DNA of 22,103 bases. It comes from a virus. Location: positions 1-22,103 of the IMG/VR virus record IMGVR_UViG_3300006754_000212. One strand, 5' to 3'. Below are positions 3,194 through 21,350 of this stretch, one piece after another. The position numbers and the translations under genes were made by a program. Positions within the stretch are counted from its first letter, which is position 1. Each line of letters begins with the position of its first letter. The notes under the pieces are model-generated. The model had not been told where the DNA came from, searched no databases, and was given only the letters and a program-made list of their open reading frames with translations.

Positions 3194-3342
3194 ATTGGGA
3201 TATTGATTGGGATTATTGGAACGCACAACTTGAAGGGTTTAAACAACTTAAAAAGAAAAAGAAGATTTGGCGAGACCATAGGAATGAAACAAAGGAATTA
3301 GTAGATTTAATTTATGAATGGTATTGGAGTGAGGAAGAATGA
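3190..3342 (+). CDS. 50-aa Trp-rich micro-protein
   Basis: A 50-residue frame overlapping both neighbours by ATGA (start 3190 on the stop 3191-3193; stop 3340-3342 on the next ATG at 3339). It begins MNWDIDWDYWNAQ, then has a Lys-rich stretch (KQLKKKKKIW) and ends in an acidic tail, EWYWSEEE. It has six Trp in 50 residues. The double ATGA coupling, the lack of any other gene in the interval and the MNW start shared with neighbours argue that it is real. Function unknown. Confidence 0.7.
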   Translation: MNWDIDWDYWNAQLEGFKQLKKKKKIWRDHRNETKELVDLIYEWYWSEEE

Positions 3343-3974
3343 ATTGGTTTAGTATATTAAAAGGTGATAATTATCACCCCTCAATACGGGGCTTTAGAGA
3401 AAAAGCAAAAAAAATGCCACGAAATAGTGTCTATCCTTCACCTACAGATGAAAAAGAAGAAGAAACTATAATACCAACTAAGAAACCTCATTGGTCTAGA
3501 CTACATTTGCCTGACACTAATTATGGAACTATGACGGAAAGAGTGCCTAGACCTGAAGCACGTTCAGACCCTGATAATTCTCTTGAAAACCAAGATTATC
3601 CTAATTATGGTAGTAGTAACAAGGCTAACGCAAAACATAAAATTGAAGTTTTTTATTATCATTATAAGAAAAATGCAGGGCATGATAAGGAAACAGGAAA
3701 AAATCAACCATATCCATCTCGTGAAACTTTTGAGTTGGCCGGACAACCTATGAGTGAAGATGAATGGAAAGGTAATAAATATGCGTATAGAAATAAAAAT
3801 CGTAATTACATATGGGCTTTAGAGGAAATAAAATCAGATTCAAAACATGAGCGTAAAGATGGACAAAAGATACTAGATGATTATCATCCGATTAGTAGGG
3901 GTAGAATAGAGGATGGAGAACACTTTTATTCTTGGGAAGGTCAATTCGCAGATATGAAGAGGGATAGACAATGA
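3339..3974 (+). CDS. Hydrophilic protein with N-terminal Trp motif, unknown function
   Basis: 211 residues, starting MNWFSILKGDNYHPSIRG. The next 100 residues are Pro-, Asn- and Tyr-rich and look disordered (KKMPRNSVYPSPTDEKEEE region). The C-terminal half is charged and probably folded, with several Tyr and Trp. The N-terminal nine residues closely resemble those of the protein starting at 8761 (MSWFNTLKG), although the bodies of the two proteins are unrelated as far as I can see. Both ends are ATGA overlaps. Function unknown. The disordered stretch after the N-terminal peptide would suit a peptide that docks onto another structure, which is inference. Confidence 0.8.
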   Translation: MNWFSILKGDNYHPSIRGFREKAKKMPRNSVYPSPTDEKEEETIIPTKKPHWSRLHLPDTNYGTMTERVPRPEARSDPDNSLENQDYPNYGSSNKANAKHKIEVFYYHYKKNAGHDKETGKNQPYPSRETFELAGQPMSEDEWKGNKYAYRNKNRNYIWALEEIKSDSKHERKDGQKILDDYHPISRGRIEDGEHFYSWEGQFADMKRDRQ

Positions 3975-4321
3975 CGTGGATGGAAATATTAAAAGAGGAT
4001 ATAGAAATCCAATTTCCTGAAGAATGCTGTAGTGATTTATCTGCAAATATTATAGCAAGTTTTGGTAATACAGGAACTCCAGAATGGAATAAATGGATGA
4101 TGTTTGTTGTGAATTCAACACTTAATGGTGAGTGTGAAGAAGTGTTGGCAGAATTAAGTGAAATAGAAAATAAAGGAATAGATTACTTTCAAAATAAATA
4201 TTTAAATTTTACATTAACAGCAAGTCAAGAAAAAGATTTGTATTTGAAACTAAGAGAAATCTCTAGAGAATACGAATCATGTTTAGAAGATGCAACAATG
4301 CTTGACCATAGATTTCAATGA
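3971..4321 (+). CDS. Small helical acidic protein directly upstream of terL; weak small-terminase candidate
   Basis: 116 residues, predicted all-helical and acidic, starting MTWMEILKEDIE (Trp motif). Its place immediately before the large terminase gene is where many tailed viruses keep the small terminase subunit. I see no helix-turn-helix signature, so that assignment is positional only. The start overlaps the previous stop as ATGA. It ends nine bases before the terL ATG, and its terminal TGA leads into the AGGCGATAAGATG ribosome-binding site of terL. It contains a CC pair and two isolated Cys with no zinc pattern. Confidence 0.75.
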   Translation: MTWMEILKEDIEIQFPEECCSDLSANIIASFGNTGTPEWNKWMMFVVNSTLNGECEEVLAELSEIENKGIDYFQNKYLNFTLTASQEKDLYLKLREISREYESCLEDATMLDHRFQ

Positions 4322-5767: not shown

Positions 5768-5781
5768 GACAGGTGATGATT

Positions 5782-7104
5782 ATGGTTAATTTAAATGAAG
5801 AGTCTCTTAATGAGGAAATTGAAGAGAATGATGAAGAAACAGAGATATTAGAAACACTCAAACCTAAAGTCCAACAGTTGGAAGCATTGTCAGAAGAGTT
5901 AAATAGAGGGTGGTTAGATAATAAACCTATTAGAGACAATGAATCAATAGCAAAAGAATATGCAGAAAGGTTCGATATTAATTTAACTGACGCAAAGAAG
6001 CAATTATTTAATTTTCCTGATAAATATGAAATTCAAGGAAATGATATACCTACTATCATTAAAGAAATGAGAAAATATAGAAGGACATTAAAGGGAGAAA
6101 ATAAAATTCAATTTACTAATTCAATAGACAATGTAATAAGCGGATATTCTGACCATTTAGATAAATGCATTGATAGTATATATTGGATTAGAAAATATAA
6201 GATTCCATTAAATCAAATGAATAATAGTGAATATCACATTAGAAAATTAAACACTATTACAACAGAAGAAAATAAAAGAAACATTATTGATTTATTATGT
6301 AAATACTGGGAGTTAGATTTGAATAGGAAAAACATTAGTTATGGTGAAGAATATGCTTTACTAACCAAAAAGATGAGTTTGACTAAAAAGGCGTATAAAA
6401 AGGCTTTGAAAGATACAGTTATAGGCAGGTCACCTAAAGAGGAAATCCGTAAGGGTATACTAAAAGCAGTTTGTGAACACCCAGGCATTTCTTCCAGAGA
6501 AATACATGATTCACTTCCTAAGAAATTATATAATAGAACCTCTCCTATGATTATATCTAAACTCGCCAAAGACCAAAATATAACTAATGTTGATGGAGCA
6601 TATTACAAAATAAATGATGACATTAAGAAAAACATCTGGGCATATACAGCAGCATTTATTGATTCGGATGGATATATTACAATGGACAAAAATCATAATC
6701 CAAGAGTAGGTTTAGTAGCAACAGGAAATAGAGGTAAGGCATTTATGTTAGAAATGCATAAATCATTAGGAATGGGTAGGTTACATTTAGACCAAAAATC
6801 TCCACAAGATACTAGGCCAGTTAATAGATTAAACTTTTATTCAGCAGCAGAAGTTAAAAAATTACTTACCAAGTGTAGACCACATTTCAAAATGAAAGGG
6901 CCAAATGCAGATGTCCTTCTAGAATTAATTAAAATAAAGAAGAACGATAAAAAGAAAGATTGGTATAAAGGTAGAAAGGAAGAATTATTCAAATTAATGA
7001 AGTATCACAACCATAGTGACAACACTAGATTTGATTGGAAAGAATGGGATATTGATATTAATAACATAAATAAACTCATAGACAATAATAAAATGGAGGC
7101 ATAA
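5782..7104 (+). CDS. Winged-helix protein with C-terminal LAGLIDADG homing-endonuclease domain
   Basis: 440 residues from ATG 5782, chosen because AGGTGAT lies four bases upstream; GTG 5773 and ATG 5776 fall inside that site. An acidic N-terminus (1-45) leads into a helical domain of unknown type (about 50-210), a probable winged helix (about 222-276, ILKAVCEHPGISSREIHD...) and a LAGLIDADG-type C-terminal domain. The motif is AAFIDSDGYI (290-299), with D296 at the catalytic position. Only one LAGLIDADG copy is evident, so a homodimer or a repurposed DNA-binding domain is possible. The gene sits between terL and portal. It may be a free-standing homing endonuclease that inserted here, or a packaging or DNA-recognition protein derived from one. 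Confidence 0.8.
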   Translation: MVNLNEESLNEEIEENDEETEILETLKPKVQQLEALSEELNRGWLDNKPIRDNESIAKEYAERFDINLTDAKKQLFNFPDKYEIQGNDIPTIIKEMRKYRRTLKGENKIQFTNSIDNVISGYSDHLDKCIDSIYWIRKYKIPLNQMNNSEYHIRKLNTITTEENKRNIIDLLCKYWELDLNRKNISYGEEYALLTKKMSLTKKAYKKALKDTVIGRSPKEEIRKGILKAVCEHPGISSREIHDSLPKKLYNRTSPMIISKLAKDQNITNVDGAYYKINDDIKKNIWAYTAAFIDSDGYITMDKNHNPRVGLVATGNRGKAFMLEMHKSLGMGRLHLDQKSPQDTRPVNRLNFYSAAEVKKLLTKCRPHFKMKGPNADVLLELIKIKKNDKKKDWYKGRKEELFKLMKYHNHSDNTRFDWKEWDIDINNINKLIDNNKMEA

Positions 7105-11556: not shown

Positions 11557-11993
11557 TGGTAGAAAAAGTAACAAGAGAAGAAAGAATGGCGACATTAATG
11601 AAACAGGCAGCAGAAAAGGCAATAGAGATATTGAATGCTAATGATTTCAATGAAGATGATTTGTCTGGTGAAGATGTTAAGGTAAAGAAACCAAAGGCAG
11701 AAAAGGTTTCTGATGCTAAAGGCGGAGATGAACAAGCAGATAATAGAACAAGAGATGCTGTTGGTTCTGATGGTAACCAAGTAATGAAGGAAGAGCCCTA
11801 TAATGTTAATAGGGAAGGAGTAGAAGCATTAGAAGGACATGGACAATGCGATTTTCCACGTTGTCCTAAAGAGCCTAAATGGACTTGTCTTTATCATGCT
11901 GGCGGTATGTGTGAGTATCATTACAGAGAACTATCAAATAAAGACAAGATGTTTAATACAACACATCGCTGGGTTCCAATTAAAAAGAAGTGA
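11556..11993 (+). CDS. Zinc-finger protein, first of two paralogues
   Basis: 145 residues from ATG 11556 (TGATG overlap; the upstream TTG is rejected). A helical N-terminus and a disordered, charged middle precede a C-terminal zinc-binding domain. Its pattern is C98-x4-C103-x7-C111-x2-H114-x4-C119-x2-H122-x14-H137, ending HRWVPIKKK. The next gene carries the same domain with the same spacing (one ligand Cys instead of His) and the shared lead-in VEALEG, so the two are paralogues. The fold resembles B-box/treble-clef fingers by ligand spacing, but I cannot name the family. Role unknown: protein or nucleic-acid binding. Confidence 0.8.
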   Translation: MVEKVTREERMATLMKQAAEKAIEILNANDFNEDDLSGEDVKVKKPKAEKVSDAKGGDEQADNRTRDAVGSDGNQVMKEEPYNVNREGVEALEGHGQCDFPRCPKEPKWTCLYHAGGMCEYHYRELSNKDKMFNTTHRWVPIKKK

Positions 11994-11998
11994 TTAAA

Positions 11999-12259
11999 AT
12001 GAATTGGGAAAAAATTATTAAAGAAAACCCAGTAGAAGCACTAGAAGGAGTTTGGGGGACAATATCTACAATTGTAGAATGCGAATGGCCGCAATGTAAA
12101 AATGATGCTGATTGGATTTGTCATAAATGTAACATCGGTTTGTGTGAGAGTCATTTCAGATTAGGACAAAATTTGAAGTCCGTAAGCAATGACGGCTATC
12201 ATAAGTGGGTTAACAAGCATAATCCTACAAAAAAGCCATTTCCAAGAAAAAAGAAGTGA
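11999..12259 (+). CDS. Zinc-finger protein, second paralogue, with a 9-codon insert shared with a membrane-protein gene
   Basis: 86 residues from ATG 11999, with GTGATTAAAATG as ribosome-binding site; the GTG at 11990 belongs to that site. It begins MNWEKIIKENP (Trp motif), then VEALEG. Next comes WGTISTIV, encoded by a 27-bp segment identical to one in the gene at 18987, then the zinc domain: C28-x4-C33-x7-C41-x2-C44-x4-C49-x2-H52-x15-H68. Relative to the first paralogue, the hydrophobic segment replaces three residues (HGQ). The 20-bp stop/ribosome-binding/start sequence (AAAAAGAAGTGATTAAAATG) is repeated at both ends of the gene, consistent with tandem duplication. Confidence 0.8.
   Translation: MNWEKIIKENPVEALEGVWGTISTIVECEWPQCKNDADWICHKCNIGLCESHFRLGQNLKSVSNDGYHKWVNKHNPTKKPFPRKKK
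12051..12077 (+). repeat. 27-bp perfect direct repeat, copy 1 (in zinc-finger gene)
   Basis: Identical over 27 bases to 19090-19116, begins TTTGGGGGACAATATCT and contains the palindrome TACAATTGTA. It is read in the same frame as WGTISTIV in both genes. Confidence 0.9.
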
Positions 12260-12264
12260 TTAAA

Positions 12265-14778
12265 ATGGTCGGTTCTGGGGTATTCGGAAAAAAGACAGGT
12301 GCTATGGCGAAGCGTGTCCTTGACTTTTATGAGGACATACGCTATAAATATCTGTCTGCTGTAGAAGACCCTAAAGAATATGGTAATGAATGGAAGTCAG
12401 CAATTAAGACTATAAGAAATGATTTTGATTCACTTGGAGATTTTAGCGCGGAATTAAAAAAATACCTTGACGAGGACAATGTATTTAATGACGAGGTTAA
12501 TAATCCTCAATCAAATGCTGCTGAAAAATTATACAATTCAGTAAAGAAAATGCGCTTTAAATCAGATGAAATGAACGACCCCTTTGGTAAACAAATGGGG
12601 GATAAGGTAATTGAAACATTAATTAAGACTCCTTCTATTTATGCTATGTTCTTACACTACGCCCTACGCGCACATACGCATAGCATTAAAGAGGAATCTT
12701 GGGAAGCCCACGACCTAAAGCCTGATGAGATTACACAAGGGGCTAAGGGGTTAGACCTCAAATTAGATGATGTTCCTCTTTATATCATTGAACATTATGG
12801 AGATAATGCAGACACCACTAGAGTTAAAAGTAAGTTTAAGGGAGCACTAAATCTATTAGAACAAGTCTTCCTTGAATCGAATGATTCAGATAAGTGGGAT
12901 GAATTAATTGCTGTTCAAATAAAGAAGGATGATAAAGATGAGGATGAAAAAGAAGAGAAATCCGAAATTAATTTTATCGTTCCAAATAAACCAATGTATA
13001 GAATATTTGAAGTAAATGACATAAAAGAACTAAAGGGATTTAGTGGTGAATATTTAGTTCAAGAAAAATTTGATGGAATCAGAATACAAATCCATAAATC
13101 AGATAATAAGGCTAAAATCTATACTTACAATGAAAAGGATATTACAGATAAGTGTAAAGATATTGTCGAAAAAATAGAACAAAAAAGATTCGGTGATATG
13201 ATTTTAGATGCTGAATTAATTTTATATGATGGTGATGAACCATTACATAGAGCAGATACTATAGCCCATTTATTTAAGGGTAAATATAAGGATGCTACAC
13301 TTAAAGCAAGAGTTTTTGATATAATGAATCATGATGGTAAAGACCTTGCAGATGCACCACTTAGAGAAAGAATAAATATATTGTTTTATCAATTATCTCC
13401 TGGTTCATCAGACCTATTCAATTTCCCCTCAAAGAAAAATTCTAGAATTGCAGATTCAATTAAAGACATAGAAAAATATGGTAAAGATATAATGTCTTCT
13501 AAAACAGCAGAAGGAGTGGTAATAAAGGATATAGAATCAACATATTATCTTGGCAATAAAAAGAACCCAAAATGGATTAAGTGGAAGAAATTTGTAGATT
13601 TAGATGTTATTGTTTTAGATAAGAAAAAGACTAAATCTAATTTATATTCATACACTGTTGGGGTTGGCCCTCTAGATGGAGAACAAAGCAGGGAACATAA
13701 TGGAACAGAATTTGAAGGGAAAACATATTTACCTGTAGGTAAGGCTCTTAATACAAAACAATCAGTTGCTATTGGTTCAATCATTAGAGTTAAAGTAGAT
13801 GAAGTTAGAAGAAAGGGAACAGGTTATAGCCTTTATTCTGCAAAGGTAATTGAGATACCTGAAGTGGAAACACCAGAGAAATTAATAACTTTAGAACTTT
13901 TATCTAAGGAGGGAAGAAAATCACTTAAGTATGATATAGAAGATGCTTTACTTAAATATACAATAACTGATGGCATTCATGGCAAAGCAGATATTATAAT
14001 GAAATCTGATTATGAAGGATTTACCATCTATGGCTTTGAAGGAGATGAATTAATGCAGAAAAATGCTTTGGCTGATATGGATATGTGGAAGGAACAAATA
14101 ACTGAAATGATTAAATCCCACACTTCTGATGCGAGAGTTGCAATTAAGAATTTCTTAAATGAAGAAGGAAAACCAACAGAAGTAAAAGATATATTTGAGT
14201 TTATGGTTAAGAATAAACCAGAATTAACTGAAAAATTATGGGATGGACTATTTAATAAATTTTCAAAGTGGATAGATGATTATGATGATTTTATTCAAGT
14301 GTCTCCAACTACTTACAAAGATAATGATTTGAAAGTAATAAAAGATGAGGAACCAAAGAGTGATTCTGGTTCATATCGAATGTATGTTAGAAAGGATGAT
14401 AACATAGAATTTTTAATTAATTACAAAGATAAGGATATGATTTGGATAATTGATATTGAAGATACAGAAGACATATATAATTTGTTTGGTAAGGCAGGTA
14501 AGTTTCCTGCACAAATTGGAGAGAAGAGTCAACCTGATAAATTATTAGATAAAGGAGAAATAATATTTGGTGTTCAAAAGCATGGTTATCATGAATATAA
14601 AATCAATGGAGATAAATTCAAGACTAGACTACACTTTAGAGTGGTTCCTGTAAAGGATGAAGATAAATGGGTTGTATGGACTGGATTTAAACAGACGATG
14701 TTAGATTCAAAAGAAGACGAAGGCATATGGGATATTGCAAACGATAGGCATAAAAAGTTAGCCATGCAAATTGCCTAA
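12265..14778 (+). CDS. ATP-dependent DNA ligase with extra N- and C-terminal domains
   Basis: 837 residues from ATG 12265 (GTGATTAAAATG leader). Seals nicks in DNA using ATP through a lysyl-AMP intermediate. Motif I is EKFDGIR, with K268 as the predicted nucleophile. Further motifs are DAEL (E317), RVFDIMNHDGKDL (349-361), EGVVIKD (416-422) and KWIKWKK (436-442), followed by an OB-fold region to about 540. The first 240 residues are helical and could be a DNA-binding domain, ending in an acidic linker. The last 290 are unassigned; a segment near 760-800 (GVQKHGYHEYKING...LHFRV) faintly recalls LigD phosphoesterase domains, without proof. A ligase inside the head gene cluster, between zinc-finger genes and protease, is unusual. 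Confidence 0.9.
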   Translation: MVGSGVFGKKTGAMAKRVLDFYEDIRYKYLSAVEDPKEYGNEWKSAIKTIRNDFDSLGDFSAELKKYLDEDNVFNDEVNNPQSNAAEKLYNSVKKMRFKSDEMNDPFGKQMGDKVIETLIKTPSIYAMFLHYALRAHTHSIKEESWEAHDLKPDEITQGAKGLDLKLDDVPLYIIEHYGDNADTTRVKSKFKGALNLLEQVFLESNDSDKWDELIAVQIKKDDKDEDEKEEKSEINFIVPNKPMYRIFEVNDIKELKGFSGEYLVQEKFDGIRIQIHKSDNKAKIYTYNEKDITDKCKDIVEKIEQKRFGDMILDAELILYDGDEPLHRADTIAHLFKGKYKDATLKARVFDIMNHDGKDLADAPLRERINILFYQLSPGSSDLFNFPSKKNSRIADSIKDIEKYGKDIMSSKTAEGVVIKDIESTYYLGNKKNPKWIKWKKFVDLDVIVLDKKKTKSNLYSYTVGVGPLDGEQSREHNGTEFEGKTYLPVGKALNTKQSVAIGSIIRVKVDEVRRKGTGYSLYSAKVIEIPEVETPEKLITLELLSKEGRKSLKYDIEDALLKYTITDGIHGKADIIMKSDYEGFTIYGFEGDELMQKNALADMDMWKEQITEMIKSHTSDARVAIKNFLNEEGKPTEVKDIFEFMVKNKPELTEKLWDGLFNKFSKWIDDYDDFIQVSPTTYKDNDLKVIKDEEPKSDSGSYRMYVRKDDNIEFLINYKDKDMIWIIDIEDTEDIYNLFGKAGKFPAQIGEKSQPDKLLDKGEIIFGVQKHGYHEYKINGDKFKTRLHFRVVPVKDEDKWVVWTGFKQTMLDSKEDEGIWDIANDRHKKLAMQIA

Positions 14779-18259: not shown

Positions 18260-18571
18260 ATGTCTGGTGGATGCAATAATACAGGTGTTTTAACTGTTTC
18301 AGGAAGTGGAACAGCATCAACTCAAGCCATTACTGGCCGTATTAGAATACAATCTATTAAGGTTAATAATGATGCAGCAGTAGATAAAACAGTAACTTTC
18401 TATGATGGAACAGCAAACAGTGCAACAAAGATAGCAGAAGTCCATGTAGGTGCAGTAAATCAAAATATTGATTACGACATGCATGGTTCAATTGCTATTA
18501 ATGGTGTATTTGTTGAAGTTTCAGGTAGTGGGAGTAATAGTGGGGTAAGTTTCTCGGTTCAATACTTTTGA
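18260..18571 (+). CDS. Small beta-rich probable structural protein
   Basis: 103 residues from ATG 18260, which has AAGGAG nine bases upstream; the TTG at 18233 has no such support. Sequence is Gly/Ser/Thr/Val-rich with alternating hydrophobics (GRIRIQSIKVNNDAAVDKTV, EVHVGAVNQNIDYDM, GVFVEVSGSGSNSGVSFSV), typical of a single beta-sandwich domain. It is likely a capsid decoration or virion surface protein, by composition and position only. It has one Cys, no catalytic pattern and no signal peptide. Confidence 0.75.
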   Translation: MSGGCNNTGVLTVSGSGTASTQAITGRIRIQSIKVNNDAAVDKTVTFYDGTANSATKIAEVHVGAVNQNIDYDMHGSIAINGVFVEVSGSGSNSGVSFSVQYF

Positions 18572-18579
18572 GGGATAAA

Positions 18580-18978
18580 ATGCCAGCACTAGAAAAAGAC
18601 ACAAAACTCGTAATGACGATATTATTCGTTGGCGCGATTAGCGGAACTAATGTTTACTTTTACGGTAAATATGGTAGTATGATTGCTTTTAATGAATATG
18701 CCCATGCTTTGATATTTGGGTTAATGACTATTGGAGCAATATTAGCAATGAAAGCAATATTTGATTTAGCATTAAATGATAAAATTGAAATGTTTTTAGT
18801 AGATAGAAGAATAGGAGCATACTGGGCTAAAAAGCAAAGAGATGCTGAACAGAGGGAAAAAATTCGTCAAAGTATGAATTCATATAACCCTGTGCAACCA
18901 CAATATATGCCTATTCCTCCACCTCCAAGACAAGAGGAGCCGAGAGTTCCCGCTTCGTTTTTGGCTCAAATTGAGTAG
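18580..18978 (+). CDS. Two-helix membrane protein
   Basis: 132 residues from ATG 18580 (AGGGAT leader; the TTG at 18568 is rejected). Two probable transmembrane helices lie at about 11-31 (LVMTILFVGAISGTNVYFYG) and 39-64 (YAHALIFGLMTIGAILAMKA). A charged helix follows (about 70-104), then a Pro/Gln-rich tail (YNPVQPQYMPIPPPPRQEEP). It precedes a second membrane protein and a small GTPase. It could be a virion membrane-interaction, lysis or superinfection-exclusion protein. Two helices and a charged C-terminus also occur in holins, but the long tail argues against a simple holin. Confidence 0.75.
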   Translation: MPALEKDTKLVMTILFVGAISGTNVYFYGKYGSMIAFNEYAHALIFGLMTIGAILAMKAIFDLALNDKIEMFLVDRRIGAYWAKKQRDAEQREKIRQSMNSYNPVQPQYMPIPPPPRQEEPRVPASFLAQIE

Positions 18979-18986
18979 TGAGGCAA

Positions 18987-19214
18987 ATGCTTGAAGCAAT
19001 TACAATGGGCTTTGATGAAACTACATTAGCGTATGACTTACAAAGAGCACATTCGGCTGATGTATGGTTTCTTAGGGCTAGATATTTTTTTTGGGGGACA
19101 ATATCTACAATTGTAGGCTTTCTTGTTGGACACGCATTACCCTTAATGGGAGTAAATGTATATAAAGAAACATGGGAGGGCTTCTGGAATTTTTGGCACC
19201 ATTTAGTAGGATGA
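18987..19214 (+). CDS. Small membrane protein sharing a 27-bp segment with a zinc-finger gene
   Basis: 75 residues from ATG 18987 (GTGAGG just upstream). A hydrophilic N-terminus is followed by one probable transmembrane helix (about 34-55, FFWGTISTIVGFLVGHALPL) and a Trp-rich C-terminus (YKETWEGFWNFWHHLVG), likely amphipathic. The WGTISTIV part of the helix is encoded by 27 bases identical to 12051-12077. It overlaps neither neighbour and is four bases before the GTPase gene. It could anchor the GTPase or act in membrane perturbation. Both are inference. Confidence 0.72.
   Translation: MLEAITMGFDETTLAYDLQRAHSADVWFLRARYFFWGTISTIVGFLVGHALPLMGVNVYKETWEGFWNFWHHLVG
19090..19116 (+). repeat. 27-bp perfect direct repeat, copy 2 (in membrane-protein gene)
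   Basis: Second copy of the repeat at 12051-12077. Here it encodes part of a transmembrane helix and looks native to the gene. Flanking bases differ on both sides (T/G before, G/A after). Confidence 0.9.
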
Positions 19215-19218
19215 TAGT

Positions 19219-19887
19219 ATGTCTATAATGACAGGCTTTGTTATCATCATGGCTGAAAAATTGGGTCATTTTTGGAGAAAAGTTCACGCTATTCCTTTTG
19301 GAGTATATGGCGCAACAAAAGTAGGAAAAACAACATTGCATCATCAAATGAGAACAAGAGGAGAAGTTCCAGATATTAAGAATAGAACTGTTGGAAGAGG
19401 CAGGGCTACCAGAAAGACTATTAAAATTGATGGAGACCAACATACAATCAAAACAGCAGATGTAGGAGGAGAAACACTTTATTGGGGCGAATGGCTTAAA
19501 GATATGAGAACCCGCAAAGTAAAATACATTATATTCATGATAGATGATAGACACATGGATAAACATTATGATATAGAACAACAGTTATGTTGGAGTTTTT
19601 TAGTTGATTCAATATGTTCTCCTTATTGGGATGCAATAAATAAAAGGAAAAGAAAAAAAGCACATGACTATCCAATTGCAGTAGGACTATGGGCAAATAA
19701 ATTCGATTTATGGAAAGACAAATATCCTTATGATGATATACAAAAGCACCCAATATTTGAATCATTTAAAGACGGTATGGCTAAATTAAATGATAGAGGA
19801 ATACCCTGTTTCAAATACATAGTAAGTGCAAAATCAGATTCAAAAATGGTATATAGAGGACTAGTAACAATGATGGAGGATTATTGA
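19219..19887 (+). CDS. Ras/Arf-like small GTPase
   Basis: 222 residues. All nucleotide-binding motifs of a TRAFAC small GTPase are visible in order: G1 P-loop GATKVGKT (31-38), a switch I candidate around T57/T65, G3 DVGGE (81-85), G4 NKFD (160-163) and G5 SAK (203-205). DVGG-E is closest to Arf, SR-beta and G-alpha types (DVGGQ), with Glu at the usual catalytic Gln position. This might lower or alter hydrolysis. The N-terminal 20 residues are hydrophobic to amphipathic and could bind membrane. Starting at ATG 19249 would remove ten of these residues, but that site lacks a ribosome-binding site. It follows two membrane-protein genes and overlaps the next micro-gene by one base. Confidence 0.85.
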   Translation: MSIMTGFVIIMAEKLGHFWRKVHAIPFGVYGATKVGKTTLHHQMRTRGEVPDIKNRTVGRGRATRKTIKIDGDQHTIKTADVGGETLYWGEWLKDMRTRKVKYIIFMIDDRHMDKHYDIEQQLCWSFLVDSICSPYWDAINKRKRKKAHDYPIAVGLWANKFDLWKDKYPYDDIQKHPIFESFKDGMAKLNDRGIPCFKYIVSAKSDSKMVYRGLVTMMEDY

Positions 19888-19949
19888 TGATAATAACTAA
19901 CAACTGTTCTATGGCTCCTGATTGCTATTGCAGGGAGTGTTTAGAATGA
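19887..19949 (+). CDS. 20-aa Cys-rich micro-protein
   Basis: Starts on the GTPase stop (TGATG, one shared base) and ends on the next ATG (ATGA). The product is 20 residues with four Cys in CSMAPDCYCREC, a plausible minimal metal-binding knuckle. Overlap at both ends supports translation. Alternatively it is a short coupling ORF that reloads ribosomes onto the next gene, whose GGGAG ribosome-binding site lies within it. Confidence 0.5.
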   Translation: MIITNNCSMAPDCYCRECLE

Positions 19950-20614
19950 GTATGCAATATAACCCTCCTTCATTAATTGGAGCAACTAATGCTCAAGTTG
20001 CTAATGCCTTTTTACCTCCTATAAAGTATGCTCGCGCTGCTGGAGGAATAATGAATTATGATTATAAAAGTTCTAAACCAAAGAAACAATTAAAAGAAAT
20101 GATTAAAATTCTTTGGCCGCAGAAAAAGAAATTCCTTAAGATTCCTTATAGTTTCCAATTCAATACAAGAGATAGATGTGTTGTTTGCGGAACACACAAA
20201 ATTTGGGAAGCATCTGACCCAACAAGACCACCATTACCCCTTCATAAAGTTAGGAAGGGTTATCCAATGCGAGGCACTTATTGTGATAAACATGCTAGAT
20301 TACACAAACAATATGAAATGTTAGAGCAACAAATAATAGCCGATGAACACGGCTTAGAATTTAAAAGGTTTGTTCCTACACCCAAAGTGCCTAAAATTTT
20401 ACAATCTGCACCGCTAACTTCATTAAGGCAATCGGACATCGAGGCATTGAGTGAGGTTGGCTGGACAATAAGACCCCCACAAATGCAATCAGAAACATTA
20501 GAAGATGAAATGTTTAGATTAACAATTGAAAGCCAATCAATCAATAAAAGAGTATTGAAATTAATCTCAGACGGCGCACAAGTAATTCCTCAAGTAATAG
20601 AGGAGGTAGAATAG
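19946..20614 (+). CDS. Zinc-binding protein of unknown function
   Basis: 222 residues from ATG 19946, chosen for GGGAG eight bases upstream and the ATGA overlap; the TTG at 19922 is rejected. The N-terminal 70 residues are Pro/Ala-rich then basic. A treble-clef-like zinc site follows: C78-x2-C81 ... C113-x2-H116, with H120 nearby. The remaining 100 residues are helical with acidic patches. The loop between the zinc pairs is Pro-rich (SDPTRPPLPLHK), a layout also seen in HNH-type proteins, but no HN catalytic motif is evident. Role unknown; it is coupled to the GTPase cluster. Confidence 0.75.
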   Translation: MSMQYNPPSLIGATNAQVANAFLPPIKYARAAGGIMNYDYKSSKPKKQLKEMIKILWPQKKKFLKIPYSFQFNTRDRCVVCGTHKIWEASDPTRPPLPLHKVRKGYPMRGTYCDKHARLHKQYEMLEQQIIADEHGLEFKRFVPTPKVPKILQSAPLTSLRQSDIEALSEVGWTIRPPQMQSETLEDEMFRLTIESQSINKRVLKLISDGAQVIPQVIEEVE

Positions 20615-20615
20615 A

Positions 20616-21350
20616 ATGGGTTTATTTGGAACAAGTAATAGTGCAATATCGAATCAGATAACGAATCAAGGACAGTCGGATTTTAAGGTAATGAATAACC
20701 TTTTAACCTTACAGGATAATCATGTGGAAGAGTTCTTTCAGTATCATGGAGAAGCATTTTTGAGTTCTCTTGAAAAATTAATGGAAGATGTAATAGAGAG
20801 AGTAGTAAGTCAAATGCTAGTTAAACTAAAATTTGTTAGTAATTCTAATGGTGAAATATCAGTCCATTCAGATGCATTAAGGGAATATGAAACAATAACT
20901 GCTGAAAATATTACATTAGACTTACAAACGCTTTTGGCTTCTGCATTAAATACTGAAGTTATTATGCAAAGAAAAATGGCTAAACAGCAATATTTAGAAG
21001 CACAAGGATTTACAACTAGTTCAGTCCCACAACAAGGTATGCCGCAAGGAATGCCGCAACAAGGTATGCCGCAACAAGGCATGTCAATGGGTAATCCTCA
21101 AGGATTAAACCCTAATCAAATTCAAGGAAGTAATGCTGGGGTTGCCGCGAATAATATGATGATGCAACAACAACAAGCATTCAATAATCAAAGTGGCTTC
21201 CCTGTTCCGCCATCAGGTTATGACCAAATGAATAACCCATATTGGATTGACCCTATGACTGGACAACCAACATATACCCCACCATCTAGCGGATTGGGCC
21301 TAGGAAATGCCATAAGTAAAGGTTTGGCTTGGGCTTCTTGGCTAGCATGA
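20616..21350 (+). CDS. Protein with M/P/Q/G tandem repeats, probable virion component
   Basis: 244 residues, with GAGGAGG about nine bases upstream of the ATG. It starts MGLFGTSNSAISNQ. Residues 20-130 are helical (VEEFFQYHGEAFLSSLEKLM and following). A low-complexity segment at about 138-165 consists of MPQQG-type repeats, then a Q/N/G/P-rich disordered tail. The C-terminal 20 residues (GLGNAISKGLAWASWLA) form a hydrophobic helix. The MGLFG start could be N-myristoyl-like only in eukaryotes, so I ignore it. No family recognised. Confidence 0.75.
   Translation: MGLFGTSNSAISNQITNQGQSDFKVMNNLLTLQDNHVEEFFQYHGEAFLSSLEKLMEDVIERVVSQMLVKLKFVSNSNGEISVHSDALREYETITAENITLDLQTLLASALNTEVIMQRKMAKQQYLEAQGFTTSSVPQQGMPQGMPQQGMPQQGMSMGNPQGLNPNQIQGSNAGVAANNMMMQQQQAFNNQSGFPVPPSGYDQMNNPYWIDPMTGQPTYTPPSSGLGLGNAISKGLAWASWLA
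21027..21083 (+). repeat. In-frame tandem repeat encoding MPQQG units
   Basis: Imperfect 15-base units of the form ATGCCGCAACAAGGT (one 12-base shortened copy, ATGCCGCAAGGA) encode QQG-MPQG-MPQQG-MPQQG-M. Near-identity of codons indicates recent slippage or expansion. Confidence 0.8.

Follow-up and report, generated by a model that had tools for sequence, protein, structure and literature searches.

The stretch of viral DNA analysed here (the window: 22,103 nt, IMG/VR record IMGVR_UViG_3300006754_000212) is a piece of a tailed virus, a magrovirus of 90-100 kb, and encodes on its plus strand a small GTPase of predicted Ras-superfamily fold (positions 19219-19887, 222 aa, ATG start) with clade-wide conservation. 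The gene lies in a conserved block with two membrane proteins (TM1 and TM2), a zinc-type protein and a Q/M-rich protein, and its relatives form two deeply separated clades (clade 1 and clade 2). The block is best read as a putative GTPase module, bound to the membrane and acting late, that would serve membrane remodelling or egress. In its central form, to which we lean while giving it somewhat less than an even chance, this reading takes the GTPase as the core GTP-dependent switch working at the host cytoplasmic membrane late in infection, resembling ArvA and Arf in action and not by membership.

As the first-pass annotation had stated, the protein is a small GTPase of a tailed virus with all named G motifs intact: the P-loop GATKVGKT (G1, residues 31-38, positions 19309-19332), DVGGE (G3, residues 81-85, 19459-19473), NKFD (G4, residues 160-163, 19696-19707) and SAK (G5, residues 203-205, 19825-19833). 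Thr57 (19387-19389) is invariant, belongs to an RT motif common to both clades and is a candidate for the switch-I (G2) threonine. The start methionine is conserved across relatives. The G motifs are kept in all 81 clade-1 sequences aligned, and GxxxxGKTT, DxGG and NKxD in 227 of 227 distinct full-length relatives from both clades, so that they cannot be put down to chance; at G5, clade 1 retains SAK, where clade 2 mostly has ATR. The 227 distinct proteins are single-domain and 210-271 aa long. The gene is under purifying selection, the median dN/dS being 0.16 over 1,112 clade-1 GTPase pairs. Outside the G motifs, the invariant residues of both clades include W89, W92, D95 and R99, which follow switch II, and D109 and R111, just past the next strand; these are unusual for Ras proteins and are candidates for partner binding.

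The first-pass annotation had also stressed the glutamate after DVGG. It is present at residue 85, the Gln61-equivalent position, but it is not fixed in the family, which weakens that emphasis. Among distinct clade-1 proteins the position is E in 95 and Q in 26, among distinct clade-2 proteins Q in 75, E in 22, D in 8 and H in 1, and the E/Q label needs six changes on a tree of 165 rows. Since E and Q alternate within the family, Glu looks like a tolerated alternative and not the mark of a dead enzyme. Reports on Ras Q61E conflict, with increased intrinsic activity cited in one (PMC10515638) and a rate below wild type, like that of other Q61 mutants, in another (PMC6813200).

The AlphaFold2 model of the protein has the full small-GTPase fold (mean pLDDT 73, pTM 0.74), with low confidence at the P-loop and switch I; a second model from a more diverse alignment was slightly lower in confidence and gave the same fold and the same Foldseek outcome. 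The best PDB matches of the model were Rab33, Rab1 and KRas (probability 1.0), with E-values of about 1e-8 to 1e-7 for these and G-alpha and moderate TM-scores of about 0.5-0.7, depending on target length. The best 50 matches among the predicted viral structures of BFVD came nearly all from eukaryotic giant viruses and were GTPases, of Ras/Rab/Ran type or other, and the one clear tailed-phage protein among them was an adenylate kinase with a poor alignment. The first-pass annotation had proposed structure prediction and search as a check, and had held that homologues lacking NKxD/DxGG, or a match to a non-GTPase P-loop family, would speak against it; the homologues keep both motifs, and the best structural matches are small GTPases (Rab, Ras) rather than kinases or packaging NTPases. 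The P-loop region occasionally gives weak AAA and ATPase_2 matches, which could hint at a P-loop NTPase of kinase or packaging type that is no switch, or at a gene in decay, but with NKxD and DxGG kept throughout, a Rab/Ras fold match and the dN/dS given above, we regard this as improbable in the extreme.

Pfam and NCBIfam both point to a GTPase for the window protein, with no model of either above its cut-off (MMR_HSR1 19.9 bits against 21.9; small_GTP 21.8 bits, E 1.3e-4, against 42.5; SRPRB 13.9 bits against 25). The sub-threshold Pfam scores are spread over the five families MMR_HSR1, SRPRB, Roc, Ras and Arf, and a genome-level profile search gave no match to PF00025 (Arf) in the window. 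By its motifs and predicted fold the protein can be classed as a Ras-superfamily small GTPase, while membership in Arf or SR-beta is not demonstrated. With Arf, Sar and SR-beta it shares a DxGG[QE] G3, NKxD and an N-terminal helix; it differs from them in its scores, in lacking Gly2, in that Foldseek puts Rab and Ras first and in that Glu is common at the Gln position, and the Arf/SR-beta type first suggested for it is not supported. SRPRB is matched by 45 of 46 clade-1 members (best E 5.5e-5), which, together with the two membrane proteins directly upstream, would suit an SR-beta-like membrane receptor GTPase responsible for targeting or inserting the viral TM1 and TM2. The window protein falls below the Pfam cut-off, however, clade-2 GTPases have no SRPRB match in Pfam, no SR-alpha-like partner was seen in the module and the GTPases of most relatives have no transmembrane span as an anchor; we consider this explanation very unlikely.

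The hydrophobic N-terminus described at first is recovered as a predicted helix (residues 2-22 in the first AlphaFold2 model, 3-22 in the second; codons 2-22, positions 19222-19284), a candidate for membrane contact with a hydrophobic first half, but its hydrophobic moment is modest and not above that of shuffles (p about 0.12-0.14). S2, M4, G6, F7, I9 and E13 are invariant in clade 1; with Ser at residue 2 in all clade-1 members, the Arf-type Gly2 is absent.

The two membrane proteins were correctly placed next to the GTPase by the first-pass annotation. TM1 (18568-18978, plus strand, start probably ATG at 18580) is a membrane-hairpin protein with a charged helix and a Pro-rich tail; two TM segments are predicted in 50 of its 82 relatives and a single one in the other 32. 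TM2 (18978-19214, plus strand, start probably ATG at 18987) is a single-pass membrane protein. The reading frames of TM1 and TM2 abut, and TM2 ends 4 bases before the GTPase start. Downstream follow the zinc-binding-type protein with CxxC and TYCxxH (19922-20614, plus strand, start probably ATG at 19946), whose C86, C89, C121 and H124 are conserved at 100%, and the Q/M-rich protein (20616-21350, plus strand), the last gene of the conserved block; all gene starts other than that of the GTPase are approximate.

Relatives of the GTPase accounted for 97 of 102 pattern matches in one scan of IMG/VR and for 186 of 224 in another. The second clade, of at least 170 stretches, came to light through a divergent copy (L171, 32% identity), which ruled out a single-clade curiosity. 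GTPases of the two clades share about 31% identity and split on one fully supported branch of the tree; an archaeal-type chaperonin was found in 20 of 20 clade-2 viruses and 0 of 20 clade-1 virus records examined. A search for a third clade with the pattern DxGG[EQHD]xx[FY]WxxWxxDM placed 119 of 119 examined sequences, among the matches listed, in the two known clades. Neither clade's GTPase had a match among INPHARED phages at E<=1, and plasmids gave no GTPase match of note. The MAG that carries L171 (G021, labelled Maricaulis; L157, L166-L171) holds several magrovirus contigs, among them three GTPase copies and one chaperonin-PolB contig; it is most likely mis-binned, and its bacterial label was therefore not taken as the host.

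So that the sample did not depend on the GTPase, loci were chosen through the major capsid protein (MCP) and had to have at least 3.3 kb downstream (n = 52). GTPase, TM1, TM2 and zinc protein were each present in 52 of 52 of the MCP-drawn loci listed, and the Q/M-rich protein in 51. For clade 2, the GTPase was found in 39 of 40 TerL-drawn loci listed with enough upstream sequence; the remaining one is accounted for by a contig that begins inside the next gene. These locus sets are redundant and ocean-biased, with up to 80 loci per scan listed. With the GTPase in the core of both clades, a stray gene acquired from the host was ruled out as the main reading. In GTPase-selected loci the GTPase is 75% and the capsid protein 69% identical, a comparison biased by that selection.

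Both clades share the order TM1 (two-pass), TM2 (one-pass), GTPase, Cys/His zinc protein and Q/M-rich protein. In clade 1 the block follows the capsid protein and two to three small genes and precedes the tail genes, with the zinc protein directly after the GTPase; in clade 2 (TM1 about 180-230 aa, TM2 about 90 aa) a small AbrB-like gene stands between GTPase and zinc-type protein, and the block lies 6.9-9.1 kb before the terminase. The position of the module in the late cluster thus differs between the clades, and our main argument that its genes act together is that their order is kept while their place in the genome changes. In profile comparisons between the clades the GTPase reached a probability of 99.9%, the zinc protein 90% and the Q/M-rich protein a weak 47%, which supports probable homology of the first two and is suggestive for the third. 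Homology of TM1 and TM2 between the clades was not detectable by profile comparison; in both clades we read TM1 as a hairpin with charged helix and Pro-rich tail, and TM2 as a single span with a Trp-rich end. The small clade-2 gene (e.g. L174 8750-8944), present in 40 of 40 TerL-drawn loci listed, is named AbrB/SpoVT-like for its sequence resemblance.

The long relatives of the window virus are 90-100 kb in size with two opposed gene clusters, replication versus structural. They encode a split PolB, RFC, TFB, two ATP-dependent ligase-domain proteins, an ERCC4 nuclease and a pyrimidine-dimer glycosylase, and on the structural side an SU10-type capsid protein, an S78 protease, terminase and tail genes. 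This is the published magrovirus gene set (PMC10160649, PMC10768690). Judged against the same two papers, relative G009 (99,250 bases) has the characters of Magrovirales, namely a tailed-virus genome of 90-110 kb, PolB, ATP-dependent ligase, ERCC4 nuclease, DNA glycosylase, TFB, RFC and opposed replication and structural clusters; its family content was read from the best 25 of 32 Pfam and the best 25 of 40 PHROG families. Poseidoniales archaea are the magrovirus host according to the literature, from which we took over this assignment.

The nearest experimentally studied analogue of the viral GTPase, likened by description and gene context, would be ArvA of Haloferax volcanii (PMC10927574), which drives vesicle formation; this small GTPase carries an amphipathic helix at its N-terminus. 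Vesicle output falls about three-fold on ArvA knock-out and rises 3.5-fold on overexpression, and the operon also encodes a putative regulator and the Zn-ribbon protein ArvC (PMC10927574). Like ArvA/OapA of Haloferax volcanii and other Euryarchaeota, the viral protein is a single-domain small GTPase under 250 aa in an archaeal setting, with a predicted N-terminal helix as presumed membrane contact, links to MMR_HSR1 and Arf in Pfam and a zinc-type protein in its gene cluster. Unlike it, the viral gene is virus-encoded and has two membrane proteins upstream, and its module has no recognisable ArvB (DUF2073, directly downstream of ArvA); in clade 1 a Cys/His protein stands directly downstream, but without a match to DUF2072, the ArvC Zn-ribbon. 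Pfam searches of the neighbour families of either clade likewise gave no DUF2073, DUF2072 or known GAP/GEF. Because neither domain was found and the helix is no more amphipathic than shuffled sequence, we speak of a protein that works like ArvA and not of a member of its family.

In the switch reading that we favour, the GTP-bound form would dock on the membrane via the N-terminal helix and/or TM1-TM2, the Cys/His protein would serve as regulator or effector of the GTPase, and the complex would deform or condition the membrane for virion release or membrane-associated assembly. The membrane link proposed by the first-pass annotation is strengthened, since the order of membrane protein, membrane protein and GTPase is kept in two deeply diverged clades, but the function itself remains inferred. 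A more far-reaching version, in which a tailed archaeal virus has its own small-GTPase-driven budding or vesiculation machine (GTPase, TM1, TM2 and zinc regulator), parallel to ArvABC/Arf, for egress or vesicle-mediated spread, we regard as conceivable but rather unlikely.

Many otherwise unrelated late proteins begin with M-[STN]-W-x-x-[IVL]-[LVI]-K, in the window those at 3339-3974, 3971-4321 and 11990-12259 (similar starts at 2545, 8761 and 9406) and elsewhere proteins within L163 1-14543 and L160 6534-13921. Such starts were found in 11 of 113 ORFs of G009 and 16 of 65 in part of G003, and in none in one shuffle of each; clade-2 magroviruses have an analogous start, MNPFxxAWxLLK. The M-x-W-x-x-I-L-K start looks like a capsid-targeting tag that the prohead protease would remove, as far as can be judged from sequence.

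The location of the module, between capsid and tail genes on the same strand in clade 1 and 7-9 kb before TerL in clade 2, would also fit a role of the GTPase and its membrane partners as virion or assembly factors, e.g. as neck or internal proteins which, at the next host, attach to the membrane and aid genome delivery. We think this unlikely, for the tag just described, common on neighbouring late proteins, is absent from all five module proteins, and nucleotide switches are, to our knowledge, not usually found among the structural proteins of tailed viruses.

That the viral protein mimics, or serves as a decoy for, a small GTPase of the host (of the MglA, Rup or ArvA kind), rewiring host polarity, motility, division or surface or acting in superinfection exclusion or counter-defence, could be argued from the presence of such GTPases in archaea (PMC4316618, PMC10927574) and of viral Ras/Rab-type GTPases in giant viruses. 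Against it, both clades keep the gene in a fixed block together with four viral genes, unlike a sporadic accessory, and no MglB/roadblock (LC7) partner was recognised among the neighbours of the GTPase, which sets it apart from MglA; we hold this explanation to be quite improbable. MglA and Rup resemble the viral protein in being small GTPases of the Ras superfamily from prokaryotic settings; Group 1 Rup, too, are without the G3 glutamine (PMC4316618). The words virus and phage are absent from that survey of prokaryotic small GTPases. The Ras/Rab/Ran-like proteins of giant viruses in BFVD are likewise virus-encoded Ras-superfamily GTPases, but belong to eukaryotic viruses and have under 20% identity; we know of none in a conserved late-gene membrane module.

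Magroviruses, which infect archaea, are abundant in the surface ocean, and we know of no genes for their exit from the host or for lysis; a universally kept GTPase-membrane module offers a concrete, testable candidate for that exit. Its arrangement suggests that the virus may use it to act on the host membrane. Membrane control by small GTPases is otherwise known in eukaryotes and in cellular archaea, and gene content points to it in giant viruses. If fixed in tailed archaeal viruses, it would bear on vesicle biology in archaea and on how GTPase-driven membrane traffic arose. In the open literature we found no paper joining magroviruses with GTPases and none naming a Ras-like GTPase of tailed phages, which suggests that the GTPase-membrane-zinc arrangement is unreported in the searchable tailed-virus literature; key magrovirus papers lay outside the search and we do not claim a first report.

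Three further magrovirus genes were noted. A second ATP-dependent DNA-ligase-domain protein (window 12256-14778, 840 aa, KFDG motif) is encoded inside the structural cluster with portal and prohead protease on either side, while the replication cluster has its own ligase. A 443-aa protein with a LAGLIDADG-like stretch (IDSDGYI; window 5773-7104) lies between terminase and portal, at the same position as in G003 and G009. The replication cluster of G009 encodes a ThiF/E1-like protein (Pfam ThiF, E 1.5e-18), the match being assigned to the ORF at L161 8407-9033 from its GxGxxG start.
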